DNA from: Parachryseolinea silvisoli
GTDB lineage: Bacteria > Bacteroidota > Bacteroidia > Cytophagales > Cyclobacteriaceae
Reading direction: 5' to 3'
NCBI RefSeq assembly: GCF_021190955.1
Contig: NZ_JAIOAO010000002.1
Location: forward strand, 1,550,001 to 1,614,000
DNA: 64,000 nucleotides
The notes below the pieces were generated by a model. The model had not been told where the DNA came from, did no database searches, and was given only the letters and a program-made list of their open reading frames with translations. Position numbers and translations under genes: made by a program. Shown piece by piece: positions 54,681-64,000 of the stretch (position 1 is the first letter of the stretch; each line of letters opens with the position of its first letter).

Positions 54681-57164
54681 ATGATAAAATACCACGTTCT
54701 CCTTTTTCTGCGCAACATGCGGCGCCAAAAGCTGTTCTCGGCCATCAATTTGCTGGGTTTAACGGCCGGTATCGTCAGCACCCTGCTGATTTACCTGTAC
54801 GTGCAGCACGAGCTAAGCTACGACCGCTTTCATGCAAATGCCGACCGCGTTTACCGCATCAACCAGACCTTTATCTGGGGTGAAAACGATGACCACCTGT
54901 TCTCTTCTACCGGCCCGGGCGTAGCCTATGCGTTGGATGCCGAGATTCCGGAGGTAGAACAAGTAACCCGCGTGCATCCTACGGGCAACTTCCTGGTGTC
55001 GTACACCGACACCAAGCATGAAGCACATGCCTTTGATGAAAGCAAGATTCTGGCGGTAGACTCTAACTTCCTTTCCGTTTTCACCTTTCCGCTGGTGAAA
55101 GGCAACGCCGCCACCGCCCTGACCCTGGCGCGGAGCGTTGTCCTGACGGAAGAAGCCGCCCGGCGCTACTTCGGGGACGAAGACCCCATGGGCAAACTGC
55201 TGGAAGTAAAAGATACCAGTCCGCAAGGCGATGGTGGCCTGCAGACATACCAGGTAACGGGTGTTGTAAAAGACGTACCCTCGAACTCGTATATCGACTT
55301 CGACATGCTGGTGTCCATGAACACCTTCGAAAGCATTACCAAGGCCAACTGGAACTGGATCTGGACAACCTTCGAGACATTTGTACTGCTCGACAAACAT
55401 GCTTCACCCGAAGCGCTCACGGCTAAGCTGCCGATCCTTCCACGCAAGTATGCCGAGACAACCCTGCGTCGCACCATGAACCAGTCCTTCGACGACTATA
55501 CAAAAAGCGGTCGTTCGTGGGAGCTGTTTGCGCAGCCGCTTACCAGCATTCGCCTCTACTCGGATAATATCTACAATCGCCTGAACACCGTCAGCAGCAT
55601 CGTGATCTTGTACGTGCTGTCGGGTGTCGAGATCTTTATCGTGTTGCTCTCGTGCATCAACTTCATGAACTTATCGACTGCGCAGTATACACGCCGTATC
55701 AAGGAGTCCAGCTTGCGCAAGATTCTGGGGTCGAACCGCCTGCAATTGGCCGTGCATTTCTTCGCGGAGGCATTGATGTTCTGTGTATTGGCGGCAGGGG
55801 TGGGCCTGGCGGTAGCGCAGCTGGTATTGCCGCTCTTCAACGTGCTGACCGGCAACGACCTTCGCCTCAACCTGTTCACAGACCCTCAAATTCTCATGAT
55901 ACTGGGGGCGCTGATCCTCATCATGAGTGCCTTGTCGGGTAGCTACCCTGCCATCTTCCTGAGCCGCTTCTCGCCTGTAGAAGCGATGAAGGGCACCCTG
56001 CGTACCGGCAAGCAAGGCAAAGTGCTGCGCAACGGTCTGGTGATGTTTCAGTTTGCCATCTCCATGGTGCTGATCGTCTGCACGGTAGTGGTATTCCAAC
56101 AACTGCACTTCCTGGCCAACAAAGACGTAGGCTTTAACCGTGAGAACCTGGTGGTGGTGAAGCGCGGTGAATGGATTAAAGACAGAAAAACATTCGCACA
56201 TGCGCTGAAGAATATTCCACACGTGGAGGAGGTAGCCTGGTCTACGTCTGTGCCCCCGCGTTTATACGATGGCGACCAGTTTCAGGCAGAGGGTCATACG
56301 GATAAAACGTCTTCGTTGAACTATGTAAAGGCAGATGAGCAATATGTCTCTGCGCTGAAGCTGCAGCTCGTAGTGGGCCGCAACTTCTCGAAAGATATAC
56401 CCGCCGACAAAGAGCGTGTCATTTTGAATGAGAACGCGGTGAAGGCCTTTGGCTGGAATGTAGACGAAAGTGTATTGGGTAAAAAGATATTCTACCCGGG
56501 AATAGAGAAGACATACGAAGTGGTGGGCGTGGTGAAAGATTTTCACTACTGGGCGCTGGCTGCACCGGTACAGCCGATGGGCATCTTCCACATGGAGGGA
56601 TCGGCTTATTCCGGTCAACAACAGTTTGCGGTCGTGCGGGTAGAGGCTGGACAAGCCGACGTATGGAGCGATGTAATAGCCTCGCTGGAGAAGGAATGGA
56701 GAGTATTTGCCGGCGACGCCCCGTTCCAATACGAGTTCGTGGATCAGGCTTTCGCCGAAGCGTTTAAGGGACAGGAGCAATTCGCCCGTGCACTGACAAT
56801 CTTCGCGGCGATGGCCATTCTCATCGCTTGCTTCGGCTTGTTGGGCATGATCATCTTTACCCTGGAGCAACGCACCAAGGAGATTGGCATTCGCAAAGTA
56901 GTAGGCGCTTCGGTATGGAATATCTGGGTGCTGGTGGTACGCGAGTATACCGTGCTGATCGTGGTATCGGTGCTAGTGGCTACACCGTTGTGCATTTACC
57001 TGCTTACAAAATGGCTTGAAACCTTCCAGTACAGAGTACCGCTGACGCCCTGGGCCTTTATCCTGGCGGCGGGCAGTATGCTGGCGACATCCATTCTCAT
57101 CACCGGCTATCATGTGTTAAAAGCCGCGCTGATGAATCCGGTGGCAGTGTTAAAAGATGAATGA
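54681..57164 (+). CDS. ABC transporter permease (MacB/FtsX family, Bacteroidota type)
   Basis: The protein has 827 residues when started at 54681 (MIKYHVLLFLRNMRRQKLFS). It shows the two-half layout of this family: a first helix (AINLLGLTAGIVSTLLIYLY), a MacB periplasmic core domain (about 45-270), three helices with an FtsX domain (about 290-420), then a second MacB/FtsX block (about 430-820) with the last helices at the end. No ATPase gene is beside it. In Bacteroidota such large permeases often pair with an ATPase encoded elsewhere and export peptides, lipoproteins or antibiotics. Confidence 0.88.
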   Translation: MIKYHVLLFLRNMRRQKLFSAINLLGLTAGIVSTLLIYLYVQHELSYDRFHANADRVYRINQTFIWGENDDHLFSSTGPGVAYALDAEIPEVEQVTRVHPTGNFLVSYTDTKHEAHAFDESKILAVDSNFLSVFTFPLVKGNAATALTLARSVVLTEEAARRYFGDEDPMGKLLEVKDTSPQGDGGLQTYQVTGVVKDVPSNSYIDFDMLVSMNTFESITKANWNWIWTTFETFVLLDKHASPEALTAKLPILPRKYAETTLRRTMNQSFDDYTKSGRSWELFAQPLTSIRLYSDNIYNRLNTVSSIVILYVLSGVEIFIVLLSCINFMNLSTAQYTRRIKESSLRKILGSNRLQLAVHFFAEALMFCVLAAGVGLAVAQLVLPLFNVLTGNDLRLNLFTDPQILMILGALILIMSALSGSYPAIFLSRFSPVEAMKGTLRTGKQGKVLRNGLVMFQFAISMVLIVCTVVVFQQLHFLANKDVGFNRENLVVVKRGEWIKDRKTFAHALKNIPHVEEVAWSTSVPPRLYDGDQFQAEGHTDKTSSLNYVKADEQYVSALKLQLVVGRNFSKDIPADKERVILNENAVKAFGWNVDESVLGKKIFYPGIEKTYEVVGVVKDFHYWALAAPVQPMGIFHMEGSAYSGQQQFAVVRVEAGQADVWSDVIASLEKEWRVFAGDAPFQYEFVDQAFAEAFKGQEQFARALTIFAAMAILIACFGLLGMIIFTLEQRTKEIGIRKVVGASVWNIWVLVVREYTVLIVVSVLVATPLCIYLLTKWLETFQYRVPLTPWAFILAAGSMLATSILITGYHVLKAALMNPVAVLKDE

Positions 57165-57220
57165 TCTTGACGTTGTTGTTATTGATAGTTTAGGTTAATG
57201 TTTAAATTAAAATGTGCAGA

Positions 57221-57299: not shown

Positions 57300-57929
57300 C
57301 TACTCTAACGGCTCTTCCAGACGGTACCGGATGCCAACTCCGTTCGACCAGATGCGATTAAATAAGTTTCTGCTATTGTCATCGGATCTGTCGAGAGAAA
57401 AGTTATACTGACTTTGTGCGAAGAGACAGAATCCATGAATCGGGATGCTTATACCAACGAACGGGATCAGGGGCAGGCGGCTTTCAACGAAGCGATCGCT
57501 GTCTTTTACATTGCCCTTATAGCGGGTCTGGCGATACGAGGTAAAGTGGTAGCCCATTTCCATGCCCACATAAAGTTCGAGGTGTCGCCAGACAATGAAG
57601 TCCCGGCGCAGACTGAGAGTCAGCTGGAACACTTGATAGTCGCTATACGTATCATACCCGAAAATCTCATTCCGTGCGATAATAGTAGGAAACGTATCGG
57701 CTTTAGGAGTATACCGGCCATAACCAAAGTTACCGGTCAACGTAGAGCGTTTATTCCTTTCCCGGTCGTTTACGCCCAGGGAGAACAGGTAGGTGTGCCC
57801 GGGGCGGTAAATGTGCCTGAATTCATCCTGGTATTGGTCGACGAGTTTGGTGGCGCTGAATTCGAGCTGTGCGCATACGGGTAGGGTGGAGAAAAGGAGA
57901 ATGGCTGTGAGCAGGAAACGGTGGTTCAT
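57300..57929 (-). CDS. Outer membrane beta-barrel protein (porin-like)
   Basis: The protein has about 209 residues when started at 57929, which gives a clear signal peptide (MNHRFLLTAILLFSTLPVCA). The mature part has alternating strands and ends in aromatic-rich strands (ILFNRIWSNGVGIRYRL-like end), typical of a small OM barrel. I do not recognise a narrower family. It is convergent with the permease. Confidence 0.65.
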   Translation of the reverse strand: MNHRFLLTAILLFSTLPVCAQLEFSATKLVDQYQDEFRHIYRPGHTYLFSLGVNDRERNKRSTLTGNFGYGRYTPKADTFPTIIARNEIFGYDTYSDYQVFQLTLSLRRDFIVWRHLELYVGMEMGYHFTSYRQTRYKGNVKDSDRFVESRLPLIPFVGISIPIHGFCLFAQSQYNFSLDRSDDNSRNLFNRIWSNGVGIRYRLEEPLE

Positions 57930-58200
57930 GGGTAGGTGGAGGTGTAAAGAAAGTGAATAAAACGGAAACAGAAGAGCAGGAATTATGCCAGTACCCATAG
58001 CAATCTATATACTTTCCTTAACTTTTAAGGAAACAAAAACGGGTTTCCCGAAAACGCTTGCGAAATGGTGACAATCCGCGCAAACGAAAGCCAGTAACTG
58101 TCAACCTAACATTCGTTTTTGAGCTGGATTCGAAACATTTCCGGAAGTTTGCTTGAATAGTAGATGATAATTCGTGATAATTGTACTCGCACAGAATTTT
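57930..58200. other. Intergenic stretch before the ilv leader
   Basis: About 270 bases between a divergent barrel gene and the ilv leader peptide. The ilv promoter must lie here, but I find no convincing TAnnTTTG with a matching -33 box; GATAATTGTAC near 58175 is a poor candidate. Confidence 0.35.
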
Positions 58201-58323
58201 ATGATGAAAGATCTAAAAATAACCGAACGATCGTTAAGCCTTACAGGGCTGATCAACGGCACTGTGCTCGTCATCGTCGTCATTCTCCTCGTGGTCAAAC
58301 CCGCAGGGGCGATGGTGATTTAA
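58201..58323 (+). CDS. ilvL: ilv attenuation leader peptide (IlvL-like)
   Basis: A 40-codon frame from ATG 58201 (a second ATG at 58204) to TAA 58321-58323. Codons 22-32 read VLVIVVILLVV, that is eleven branched-chain residues in a row (6 Val, 3 Leu, 2 Ile; bases 58264-58296), followed by KPAGAMVI. The frame ends 21 bases before a perfect terminator hairpin and 88 bases before ilvE. This is the composition and layout of the leader peptides of ribosome-mediated attenuation (ilvL, leuL in enterobacteria). Its start context has no good Shine-Dalgarno, as usual for this phylum. The hydrophobic run also looks like a membrane helix, so a small membrane protein is the alternative; the control-codon and hairpin arrangement favours a leader. 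Confidence 0.82.
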   Translation: MMKDLKITERSLSLTGLINGTVLVIVVILLVVKPAGAMVI

Positions 58324-58353
58324 GATTTTAAACAAGATATCACGAACCGCCCC
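58306..58353 (+). promoter_or_regulatory. Antiterminator pairing of the ilv attenuator
   Basis: GGGGCG (58306-58311) pairs with CGCCCC (58348-58353), and GTGAT (58315-58319) with ATCAC (58339-58343), with a small internal loop between. This 11-bp structure uses the left arm of the terminator stem, so the two exclude each other. The left strand lies right after the Val/Leu/Ile codons: a ribosome stalled at 58264-58296 leaves it free, while a ribosome at the stop codon covers it. Confidence 0.65.
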
Positions 58354-58378
58354 GATCACTCGGGGCGGTTTTGTTTTA
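58345..58378 (+). terminator. ilv attenuator terminator
   Basis: AACCGCCCCGA (58345-58355) and its perfect complement (58360-58370) with a TCAC loop make an 11-bp, mostly GC stem, followed by TTGTTTTA. It lies between the leader peptide and ilvE, inside one transcription unit, which is what one expects of an attenuator. Confidence 0.88.
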
Positions 58379-58410
58379 TACAGGCAACTACAAACTAACA
58401 GTTGTAAATT

Positions 58411-59298
58411 ATGTACTACACGAAAGACACGATCCTTTTCCTGAATGGGAAATTTATCAAGGCGGTCGATGCCCACATAGATCTGTACAGTCAGACACTG
58501 CACTATGGCTTCGGAGCGTTCGAGGGAATTCGTGCCTATCAGACCATGAACGGCACGAAGGTCTTCAAGGCCGTCGAGCACTTCGAGCGCCTCAAGAAAA
58601 GCTGCGCGCTGGTCGGCATTCCGTTTCAATACGAAACTGAAGAGCTGGTACAAATTGCCTATCAACTGTTAGAGAAAAACAACCTGTCCGACGCTTACAT
58701 CCGCCCATTGGTATACAGCGGCGCCAACATGCAGCTGACGCAAACAAACGAAGTATACCTGATGATGTGCGCGTGGGAGTGGGACAAATACCACGGCGAC
58801 AAACACCTTCGGATGTGCATCTCGTCGTATCAACGCCCCAATCCGGGTGCGTTGAAGGTGGAAGCCAAAGTAACCGGACATTATGTGAACTCGATCCTGG
58901 CGACCAGCGAAGCCAAAGTACGTGGCTACGACGAAGCCCTCATGCTCGACATGAACGGCAACATCGCCGAAGCTCCGGGCGCCAACTTCTTCCTGGAAAA
59001 AGACGGCGTGTTGTACACCCCGGCGCTGGGCCATATTCTGCCGGGCATCACACGGCAAACGGTGCAGAATATTTGCCGTGAGCTCGACATACCGGTGAAA
59101 GAAAAACAAATCCGTCCCGAAGAGCTGGAAGCAGCCGACGGCGCGTTTTTGTGTGGCACCGCGGCGGAAATAGTAGGTATAGAGTCCGTTGATGCAAAAC
59201 CTTTTAAAAAAGAATGGTTTGACAGCTTAGGGGCGACCGTACAGGAAGCTTACAAGTGTCAAGTATTGGAGAAATCATTTAGCTACGTCATCATCTAG
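58411..59298 (+). CDS. ilvE: Branched-chain amino acid aminotransferase
   Basis: A 295-residue fold-type IV PLP aminotransferase that makes the last step to Val, Leu and Ile. The N-terminus reads LHYGFGAFEGIRAYQT, the PLP Lys is Lys153 in EAKVTGHYVNSILA, and later EAPGANFFL, PGITRQTVQNIC and LEAADGAFLCGTAAEIV place it firmly in the IlvE group. It is the first structural gene of the ilv operon and follows the attenuator by about 40 bases. Confidence 0.95.
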   Translation: MYYTKDTILFLNGKFIKAVDAHIDLYSQTLHYGFGAFEGIRAYQTMNGTKVFKAVEHFERLKKSCALVGIPFQYETEELVQIAYQLLEKNNLSDAYIRPLVYSGANMQLTQTNEVYLMMCAWEWDKYHGDKHLRMCISSYQRPNPGALKVEAKVTGHYVNSILATSEAKVRGYDEALMLDMNGNIAEAPGANFFLEKDGVLYTPALGHILPGITRQTVQNICRELDIPVKEKQIRPEELEAADGAFLCGTAAEIVGIESVDAKPFKKEWFDSLGATVQEAYKCQVLEKSFSYVII

Positions 59299-59439: not shown

Positions 59440-61099
59440 GTGAGTACAGAATTGAATAAGTACAGCAAGACACTGACCCAGGACCCGACGTTACCTGCCG
59501 CACAGGCAATGCTTTACGGCATTGGCCTGACGGACGAAGACATGCAGAAAGCGCAGGTAGGCATCGTGAGCACCGGTTTCGACGGCAACACCTGCAACAT
59601 GCACCTCAACGGACTGGCGCAGGATGTTAAGAAGTCAGTGTGGGCGAGCGATCTGGTAGGATTAGTCTTTAATACCATTGGCGTAAGCGACGGCATCAGC
59701 AACGGTACTGCGGGCATGCGTTATTCGCTGGTAAGTCGTGATATCATTGCCGACTCGATCGAAGCGGTATGTGGCGCACAATATTACGACGGTCTCGTCG
59801 CCATCATGGGCTGCGATAAGAACATGCCCGGCGCGTTGATCGCCATGGGCCGGTTGAACCGCCCTGCGATCATGGTCTACGGCGGCACGATTGCCGGTGG
59901 CCACTATAAAGGTCAAGAACTGAACATCATCTCGTCGTTCGAAGCCCTCGGTAAAAAACTCGCCGGTAACCTCAGCGACGAAGACTACAAAGGTATCATC
60001 AAAAACTCTTGTCCCGGCGCCGGCGCCTGTGGTGGGATGTATACGGCCAATACCATGGCCTCGGCGATCGAAGCGATGGGCATGTCGTTGCCTAACTCGT
60101 CGTCGAACCCGGCGATAGATCAATCGAAGAAAGATGAATGCGCTGCTGCCGGGCAGGCGATTTACAATCTGCTGAAGCTTGACCTCAAGCCCCGCGACAT
60201 CATGACGCGTAAGGCCTTTGAAAACGCCATTACGGTGGTGATGGCCACCGGCGGCTCGACAAACGCCGTGCTCCACCTCATCGCCATGGCCAAAGCCGTA
60301 GACGTCGCGCTGACGCAAGATGATTTCCAGAAGATCTCCGACCGTATACCGCTGCTCGCCGATTTCAAGCCCAGCGGCACGCACCTCATGGGCGCATTGC
60401 ACAAGATCGGCGGTATGTCGTCGGTACTGAAATACCTGCTGGAAAAAGGGTTCCTCCACGGCGACTGTATAACCGTAACGGGTAAGACCCTCGCCGAAAA
60501 TGTAAAAGATGCCCCCAGCCTCGTCTTCGGCGAAAACAATGTTATCTACCCGGTAGAGACACCGCTCAAGCCCACTGCCCACTTGCAGATTCTCTATGGC
60601 AACCTGGCCGAGAAAGGTTCGGTAGCTAAAATTACCGGCAAAGAAGGCGAGCGTTTTAAGGGACCTGCCCGCGTCTTCAACGGCGAGTTCGAGCTGGTAG
60701 ACGGTATCCAGAATGGCCGTGTAAAGTCCGGCGATGTAGTGGTGATCCGCTACGTAGGACCAAAAGGCGCGCCAGGTATGCCGGAAATGCTCAAGCCTAC
60801 ATCCGCCATTATGGGTTCGGGCCTTGGTAAAAACGTAGCCATGATTACCGACGGACGGTTCTCCGGTGGATCCCACGGATTTGTGATCGGCCACATTGTG
60901 CCGGAAGCTTTCGCCGGTGGCCTCATCGCCCTGGTAGAAGACGACGACCTGATAGAGATCGATATTAAGGGTCATTCCATCAACCTGTTGGTGGATGATA
61001 AAACGATAGCCCTGCGCAGAGCAGCGTGGAAACAACCCGCGCTGAATGTTAAGAATGGAGTTTTATGGAAGTATGCTAAACAAGTAAAAACTGCTGCTG

Positions 61100-61125
<26 letters not shown>
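59440..61125 (+). CDS. ilvD: Dihydroxy-acid dehydratase
   Basis: The 561-residue protein starts at a GTG (59440) and is full length. It is an IlvD/Edd Fe-S dehydratase: the cluster Cys lie in [16 protein letters not shown] and [16 protein letters not shown], and the C-terminal swivelling domain has [20 protein letters not shown]. It turns dihydroxyacids into the 2-keto acids that IlvE aminates. The stop lies inside ilvB (26-base overlap), so the two are probably coupled in translation. Confidence 0.97.
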
Positions 61126-62866
<1,741 letters not shown>

Positions 62867-62896: not shown

Positions 62897-63193
62897 ATGA
62901 AACAGGATTTCACATTAGAGATACATTCGGACAACAACTTTTCGGTCATTAACCGGATCGTCAACATTCTGAACCGGCGGCGCGTACGCATTAAACGGTT
63001 GCTGGCCCACGAAGCCGAAGATGATTTTCGTCGCGGTACGGCAGTATTGCTGCTCGTGGCAACGGAAGACATGATGGAAAAGGTAAAAAACCAGGTGGAA
63101 AAGCTTATCGAAGTAGAGCAGGCGCTGTATTATACCGGCAGCGCCTTGTACTGCGAGCTGAGCGCAAAACACAGCGTGATTGAAAACGCATAG
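62897..63193 (+). CDS. ilvN: Acetolactate synthase small (ACT) subunit, short form
   Basis: The 98-residue protein has one ACT domain: FTLEIHSDNNFSVINRIVNI, LNRRRVRIKRLLAHEAED, and a C-terminal LIEVEQALYY strand. Typical IlvN/IlvH subunits have about 160-170 residues with a second regulatory domain; here only the first ACT domain is present, as in E. coli IlvM or IlvN. So it may activate the large subunit, with weak or different feedback control by valine. Confidence 0.85.
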   Translation: MKQDFTLEIHSDNNFSVINRIVNILNRRRVRIKRLLAHEAEDDFRRGTAVLLLVATEDMMEKVKNQVEKLIEVEQALYYTGSALYCELSAKHSVIENA

Positions 63194-63247: not shown

Positions 63248-64000
63248 ATGGCTAAGATTAATTTTGGCGGAACCATAGAAGAAGTAGTAACACGGGAAGA
63301 ATTTCCGATGGAAAAGGCCCTGGACGTATTGAAGAACGAAACCATTGCCATTATCGGATATGGCGTGCAAGGCCCTGCACAGGCGTTGAACCTGCGCGAC
63401 AACGGATTTAAAGTGATCGTGGGACAACGGAAAGGTTCGAAGACCTGGGACAAAGCAGTGGAGCACGGTTGGGTTCCTGGCGAAACGCTGTTCGAGATCG
63501 AAGAAGCTGCCAAGCGTGGTACGATCCTCGAGTTCCTGCTGTCAGACGCCGGCCAGATTGCCCTGTGGCCTACCATCAAGCCTTTCCTGACAAAAGGTAA
63601 GACACTGTATTTCTCACACGGCTTTGGCATCACCTTCAAAGACCAAACCGGCATTATTCCTCCGGCCGATATCGACGTAGTATTGGCTGCGCCGAAAGGT
63701 TCGGGTACTTCGGTACGCCGCCTGTTTTTACAAGGTAAAGGTATCAACTCGAGCTATGCAGTATTCCAGGACGCCACCGGCAACGCCACACAGAAGGCTA
63801 TTGCCCTCGGTATCGGTGTAGGTTCAGGCTACCTGTTTCAAACGGATTTCAAAAAAGAAGTATACTCCGACCTGTCGGGCGAGCGTGGTACGCTGATGGG
63901 CGCTATCGCCGGTATCTTCGAAGCACAATACGAAGTACTGCGTGCGAACGGTCACTCACCTTCAGAAGCATTCAACGAAACGGTAGAAGAGCTGACACAA
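63248..64000 (+). CDS. ilvC: Ketol-acid reductoisomerase (N-terminal part, cut by window edge)
   Basis: From ATG 63248 the frame is open to the window edge (251 residues seen). The NADPH-binding Rossmann domain is clear: IAIIGYGVQGPAQALNLRDN, then GQRKGSKTWD, SHGFGIT, PADIDVVLAAPKGSGT. After it comes the start of the C-terminal knotted helical domain (AIGIG-like AIALGIGVGSGYLFQTDF, FKKEVYSDLSGERGTLMGAI) with the Mg-binding acidic residues. It converts acetolactate and acetohydroxybutyrate for IlvD. It is the fifth gene of the operon. Confidence 0.95.
   Translation, partial: MAKINFGGTIEEVVTREEFPMEKALDVLKNETIAIIGYGVQGPAQALNLRDNGFKVIVGQRKGSKTWDKAVEHGWVPGETLFEIEEAAKRGTILEFLLSDAGQIALWPTIKPFLTKGKTLYFSHGFGITFKDQTGIIPPADIDVVLAAPKGSGTSVRRLFLQGKGINSSYAVFQDATGNATQKAIALGIGVGSGYLFQTDFKKEVYSDLSGERGTLMGAIAGIFEAQYEVLRANGHSPSEAFNETVEELTQ

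Follow-up and report, generated by a model that had tools for sequence, protein, structure and literature searches.

A predicted ribosome-mediated attenuator upstream of ilvE in Parachryseolinea silvisoli and the recurrence of its elements in Bacteroidota

Leader-peptide (ribosome-mediated) attenuation is a textbook mechanism. In the enterobacterial ilvGMEDA and leu attenuators, as at the locus described here, the leader carries branched-chain codons in a row, the 1:2, 2:3 and 3:4 pairings exclude one another, and a terminator precedes the biosynthetic genes. No sequence relation to them is claimed; the host here belongs to Bacteroidota and the gene order is ilvE-ilvD-ilvB-(ilvN)-ilvC-ilvA. 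To our knowledge, Bacteroidota are a phylum without Shine-Dalgarno signals. The abstract of Vitreschak et al. 2004 reportedly mentions Bacteroidetes/Chlorobi.

As known to the authors of PMC2965389, in a passage of that paper, no leader-peptide system had been shown outside Proteobacteria and Actinobacteria in 2010. The Corynebacterium glutamicum ilvBNC attenuator (excerpts of PMC11857589) is an example of branched-chain leader-peptide attenuation outside Proteobacteria, in another phylum and with another gene order. Closer to the present host, Flavobacterium psychrophilum, of the same phylum, lacks Shine-Dalgarno signals according to sections of PMC9723704; the same paper reports strong clues for attenuation by leader peptides ahead of amino-acid operons, names structured 5′ elements before pheA and hisG, and does not mention ilv in its main text. 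The original prediction knew of no described example for this lineage, a statement to be corrected at the level of the phylum, as attenuation had already been suggested there. In Bacteroides thetaiotaomicron, also of this phylum, 5′-UTR frames reminiscent of leader peptides were reported, the example being a hypothetical protein and ilv being absent from the main text (PMC7366714). The Bacteroid-trp RNA (RF01692), linked to trp by name, is among the Bacteroidetes cis-regulatory candidates in a list of PMC2864571. Its covariance model gave no match in the ilv leader, in the window or in any of 60 family genomes, under filtering that misses some weak matches; in the control search, Bacteroides ihuae alone among 14 control genomes gave a match. 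Among the matches listed from full-text literature, outside which most subscription journals lie, none dealt with an attenuator of ilv in Bacteroidota or with amino-acid attenuators in tandem there. The spread of the ilv form, and the presence of two attenuators in series at about ten loci, seem to be less known so far.

Leader, hairpins and gene cluster in the window

We analysed a stretch of 64,000 nucleotides of P. silvisoli DNA, here called the window, in which the ilv gene cluster is preceded by the elements listed in Table 1. Judged from its sequence, the element before ilvE is very probably an attenuator of transcription that works through a translating ribosome and responds to charged branched-chain tRNAs.

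Table 1 Features of the ilv region, in positions of the window.
Feature	Position	Strand	Basis or remark
Conserved block CTAACATTCGTT, 5′ of the candidate promoter	58106-58117	+	discernible, though altered, in the 24-locus alignment
Possible promoter: TTG 58153-58155, -7-like GATAATTG 58176-58183, 20-nt spacer	58153-58183	+	sequence only
Leader peptide frame MMKDLKITERSLSLTGLINGTVLVIVVILLVVKPAGAMVI	58201-58323	+	40 codons, stop 58321-58323
Control codons, 11 Val/Leu/Ile codons in a row	58264-58296	+	leader codons 22-32
1:2 hairpin, control codons with segment 2	58270-58319	+	MFE folds
Segment 2, putative antiterminator left strand (GGGGCG, GTGAT)	58306-58319	+	pairing, folding
Segment 3, putative antiterminator right strand, overlapping the terminator 5′ arm	58339-58353	+	pairing, folding
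Intrinsic terminator, hairpin 58344-58371 and T-rich tail	58344-58380	+	sequence, folding; pairs kept in the 24-locus alignment
Conserved block ACAAACTAACAGTTGT, terminator-ilvE interval	58390-58405	+	variants kept in the 24-locus alignment
ilvE, branched-chain aminotransferase	58411-59298	+	TIGR01122 and NF005146 over cut-off
ilvD, dihydroxy-acid dehydratase	59440-61125	+	TIGR00110 over cut-off
ilvB, acetolactate synthase large subunit	61100-62866	+	TIGR00118 over cut-off
98-aa frame at the ilvN place	62897-63193	+	position only; no NCBIfam match at 1e-20
ilvC, running beyond the window end	63248-64000	+	TIGR00465 over cut-off

The control codons follow the order GTG CTC GTC ATC GTC GTC ATT CTC CTC GTG GTC, and no other I/L/V run in any of the six frames of the 64-kb window is as long, the remaining runs of at least eight being 9, 8 and 8 long. 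The original prediction had described a 40-codon leader with these eleven consecutive codons, exactly to the base. GTG at 58174 is a possible alternative upstream start, and the leader peptide had no match in Pfam.

The terminator arms (58345-58355 with 58360-58370) form 11 perfect pairs and are followed by the tail TGTTTTATA. The 11-bp hairpin with a T-rich tail that had been claimed at 58345-58378 was thus found again, with an outer G.U pair in addition. The 11-bp alternative pairing claimed to break it resolves into 6 + 5 bp, in which GGGGCG (58306-58311) pairs with 58348-58353 and GTGAT (58315-58319) with 58339-58343. Because this antiterminator occupies the terminator 5′ arm, the two structures are mutually exclusive. 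Folding also gave a 1:2 hairpin that the original prediction did not contain, at -23 kcal/mol for the 70-nt piece 58267-58336 and present as well in the MFE structure of 58201-58400. Compared with shuffled sequences, the fold of 58201-58400 had a z of -4.0 (0 of 200 shuffles as good) and that of 58297-58380 a z of -3.7 (1 of 200). Simple scans of the window were at chance level, both for terminators (one found, 0.8 expected) and for promoters (two found, 1.1 expected).

These elements suggest the following course of events. Transcription would start near 58190 and a ribosome would begin translating the leader. If Val-, Leu- and Ile-tRNA are abundant, the ribosome would reach the stop codon at 58321 and cover segment 2 (58306-58319), and the terminator hairpin (58344-58371) would then halt RNA polymerase before ilvE. 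When charged tRNA is scarce, the ribosome would stall in 58264-58296, leaving segment 2 free to pair with 58339-58353; with the antiterminator formed, no terminator would arise and the ilv genes would be transcribed. If the leader were not translated, the 1:2 hairpin would leave the terminator free to form.

A metabolite-binding riboswitch or a T-box could also govern a terminator at the end of a long, structured leader such as this one, the frame being incidental. However, no Rfam family reached its gathering score in the leader, and the whole window gave one tRNA only. The best weak Rfam scores were far under the cut-off (rnk_pseudo, 26.9 of 55 bits, E 0.014; ncS54, 23.2 of 43 bits, E 0.0042). 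The hairpin sequences, moreover, vary by lineage while the codon run and the complementarity stay. We consider such an RNA extremely unlikely here.

In the nearest relatives of the 24-locus alignment the elements of the candidate promoter are kept as CTTGAA and ATTGTA. The candidate promoter weakly resembles the TAnnTTTG type described in a section of PMC9723704. Another reading takes the hairpin as the end of another transcript, gives ilvE a promoter of its own downstream, and places a DNA-binding protein at two CTAAC..GTT blocks. In the clade alignment the blocks do lie on either side of the attenuator, and one of them is found before leuC as well: ACAAACTAACARTTGT has a single other match in the same genome, at G000:C6:1616265-1616280. 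Against this reading, the nearest upstream gene-length frame lies on the opposite strand (57300-57998), and the blocks were observed in one clade, where the search for them covered that clade and a few upstream regions outside it; the attenuator, by contrast, is found again in the phylum sample. The motif class CTAACRNYYGTT was not enriched in the genome (16 sites versus 56 for the reversed control), and the CTAAC..GTT blocks were rejected as a genome-wide operator on this ground. A second promoter at the ACAAACTAACAGTTGT block was judged unlikely, because the only upstream TTG seen is in the terminator tail and is replaced by TTTTA in L140-L143. The reading as a whole appears exceedingly improbable, and regulation through the blocks may exist in addition to the attenuator.

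Downstream of ilvC and outside the window, the cluster continues with ilvA and, after a gap of about 680 bases, leuC-leuD-leuB-leuA (L213).

GCACAG near the 5′ end (58190-58196) and CTGTGC where the control codons begin (58263-58268) are complementary, and both are kept in the nearest relatives. At 57161-57193, a short frame MILTLLLLIV is followed by a T-tailed hairpin at the end of a frame ending at 57164, which is probably chance or an ordinary gene end.

Recurrence in relatives and across the phylum

Among named relatives, Chryseolinea lacunae and C. serpens are near by IlvE (86% and 87% identity, respectively). In the comparison of related upstream regions proposed with the original prediction, the leader frame with its end KPAGA.V., the terminator and the alternative pairing were kept in five congeners (L002, L003, L004, L005 and L007) and in a member of another genus (L009). 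The V/L/I run is broken by N or S in three of these congeners (L003, L004 and L005). The locus of a further congener (G001, L006) has only 69 bases upstream of ilvE and is uninformative.

We aligned 24 loci of the wider clade, selected for the terminator type of the window. In the terminator, 95.8% of cells were paired, with both-side changes at 2 of 12 pairs. The antiterminator was paired in 80.6% of cells versus 38-53% for slid versions, a value barely above shuffles within this clade (24 of 500 as high). Its covariation was not above shuffles in the 24 members (180 of 500 as high), the 2:3 helix being too conserved to covary. When the RNA was folded up to the terminator 3′ arm, at least six of nine arm positions paired with the upstream segment in all 24 members, though weakly in L152 (-4.6 kcal/mol).

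Recurrence was scored with a detector designed after the first relatives had been viewed. Within 600 bases upstream of the first ilv gene (taken as ilvE where this lies directly 5′ of ilvD, otherwise as ilvD), it seeks a frame no longer than 60 codons that has six or more V/L/I in eight, with a T-tailed hairpin after it. From the GTDB family, 102 of 107 ilvD places were used (30 loci and 72 regions) after five partial or second copies were dropped, and two more were too short. The named set held 80 loci, of which three were too short, leaving 77. The phylum sample used 58 of 67 places; the nine omitted were six of the family of the window, two from a genus that the sample already contained and one partial. 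There is overlap between the named and family sets at least once, L134 and L033 being one contig.

The leader with its terminator was detected, with changed sequence, at 149 of 235 loci, compared with 7 of 235 on the reverse strand. By set, the matches were 74 of 100 family loci with the window included (reverse strand, 3), 48 of 77 named loci (reverse strand, 1) and 27 of 58 phylum-sample loci (reverse strand, 3); no leader reached the detector threshold at the other 26, 29 and 31 loci, respectively. Family matches divided by gene order into 37 of 42 where ilvE comes first and 37 of 58 where ilvD does. In 15 of the 26 family misses a frame is present at five of eight, 11 of them belonging to one kept type, for example MFEIVTPLSFIILICNK. 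Three matches (L180, L198 and L308) look false.

The named matches include Chryseolinea, Chitinophaga, Niastella, Segetibacter, Flavihumibacter and Sediminibacterium (not all loci so titled). No leader was detected at eight of nine Mucilaginibacter loci, the ninth being the false-looking L180, or at the sole Olivibacter locus. In the phylum sample, a family of another class (f40) gave 13 of 15, followed by f25 (7 of 13), f22 and f23 (2 of 5 each), f24 and f33 (1 of 1 each) and f36 (1 of 1, the false-looking L308); eight further families gave no detected leader at 17 loci.

A control run was made on 1.7-kb regions, the family part of which was partly mis-oriented. Under these conditions V/L/I matches numbered 64 of 102 in the family set and 49 of 80 in the named set, while other residue sets gave 0-5 matches, dinucleotide shuffles 1 of 102 and 0 of 80, and the reverse strand 8 of 102 and 6 of 80.

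Pairing geometry and tandem units

As the named and family sets overlap, the pairing test counts distinct peptides, and 151 distinct units were analysed. The pairing of segment 2 with the terminator 5′ arm, compared with dinucleotide shuffles of the segment after the run, had a mean z of -3.12, with z below -1 in 140 units and below -2 in 116. The antiterminator starts a median of 12 nt past the last control codon (5-95%: 7-27), and its segment ends a median of 6 nt beyond the leader stop (5-95%: -9 to 20), so that a terminating ribosome would mask segment 2. Segment 2 generally paired better with the terminator arm of its own unit than with arms from other sequence classes (median rank 0.022; among the best 10% for 118 of the 151 units), and the own class had the lowest mean pairing energy in six of seven sequence classes, with 52 of the 151 arms unclassified and taken as one class. 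A single-linkage grouping of the arms was dropped, as 48 of 88 chained in one group. The 1:2 pairing was weakly general (mean z -0.75; z below -1 in 59 of 151). Because leaders and arms differ among lineages, the persistence of their complementarity speaks strongly for function. Recurrence and kept pairing thus support the ribosome-mediated control of ilv put forward in the original prediction, and the switching itself we infer from these sequences.

The leader frame might instead encode a small functional membrane protein, with the V/L/I run as its transmembrane segment and an ordinary terminator after it. The run is hydrophobic, and the N-terminal ..ITER.. is kept in close relatives together with the end KPAGA.V., as such a protein would lead one to expect. 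However, leaders of other families appear by eye to be unrelated outside the run. In the best 8-codon windows, which were chosen for V/L/I, S, T and N make up 100 of the 144 other residues, and A, F, G and M only 22; this excess of S, T and N fits drifting codons and not a membrane helix. The short distance from the run to the strand complementary to the terminator also argues against a membrane protein, as do the His and Trp runs that hisG and a trpE-type gene carry instead. We regard a membrane protein as very unlikely.

The window has one attenuator unit. Ten other loci have two leader-terminator units in series upstream of ilvE or ilvD (L043, L044, L045, L067, L076, L078, L094, L267, L271 and L280), the second unit in L067 and L076 being present only at five of eight; an eleventh candidate, L156, is doubtful. 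The antiterminator z was below -1 in 18 of the 20 units, both failures being in L067. A second unit within 260 nt occurred at 9 of 149 loci versus 1.2 expected from shuffles. The tandem attenuators of Salmonella mgtCBR likewise control transcription through a leader with two short frames (excerpts of PMC3641672), but they do not serve amino-acid biosynthesis, whereas the ilv tandems are two leader-terminator units with V/L/I runs.

With moderate confidence, we propose that classic attenuation is a usual branched-chain control in large parts of Bacteroidota, implying close transcription-translation coupling, and that in several lineages two V/L/I attenuators in series before ilvE or ilvD would act as a multiplicative two-lock gate. 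As a case of leader-peptide attenuation in Bacteroidota, the locus is clear and open to genetic testing, and the ilv form recurs in this phylum with differing leader and hairpin sequences. Because an attenuator needs a ribosome close behind RNA polymerase, it would let transcription-translation coupling be tested directly in vivo in this phylum, which is not known to start translation at Shine-Dalgarno sequences, and the double attenuators in series lend themselves to testing multiplicative control.

Other amino-acid operons of the same genome

In the genome of the window, hisG is directly preceded by an attenuator-like five-His leader, MINKITIGFHHHHHVLTVRGIAY (L310 1344-1415), with a T-tailed hairpin from 1443; the alternative pairing has a z of -3.7 and starts 12 nt past the last His codon. 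A trpE-type gene, the best of three chorismate-binding genes, is preceded by an attenuator-like three-Trp leader, MKNFNNIAWWWHISKHDM (L311 reverse complement 770-826), with a hairpin from 857, an alternative pairing of z -1.6 and a gap of 23. With V/L/I, His and Trp runs before ilv, hisG and the trpE-type gene, respectively, codon identity follows the product in the three operons where a leader was found, of the four examined (those of ilv, hisG, the trpE-type gene and leuC).

Ahead of leuC, no Leu-rich leader was found by eye at the plus-strand loci of this genome and six congeners. A hairpin with a T-rich tail is present there (L213 3220-3256) and is kept in this genome and the six congeners (L232-L238); it is perhaps another kind of attenuator.
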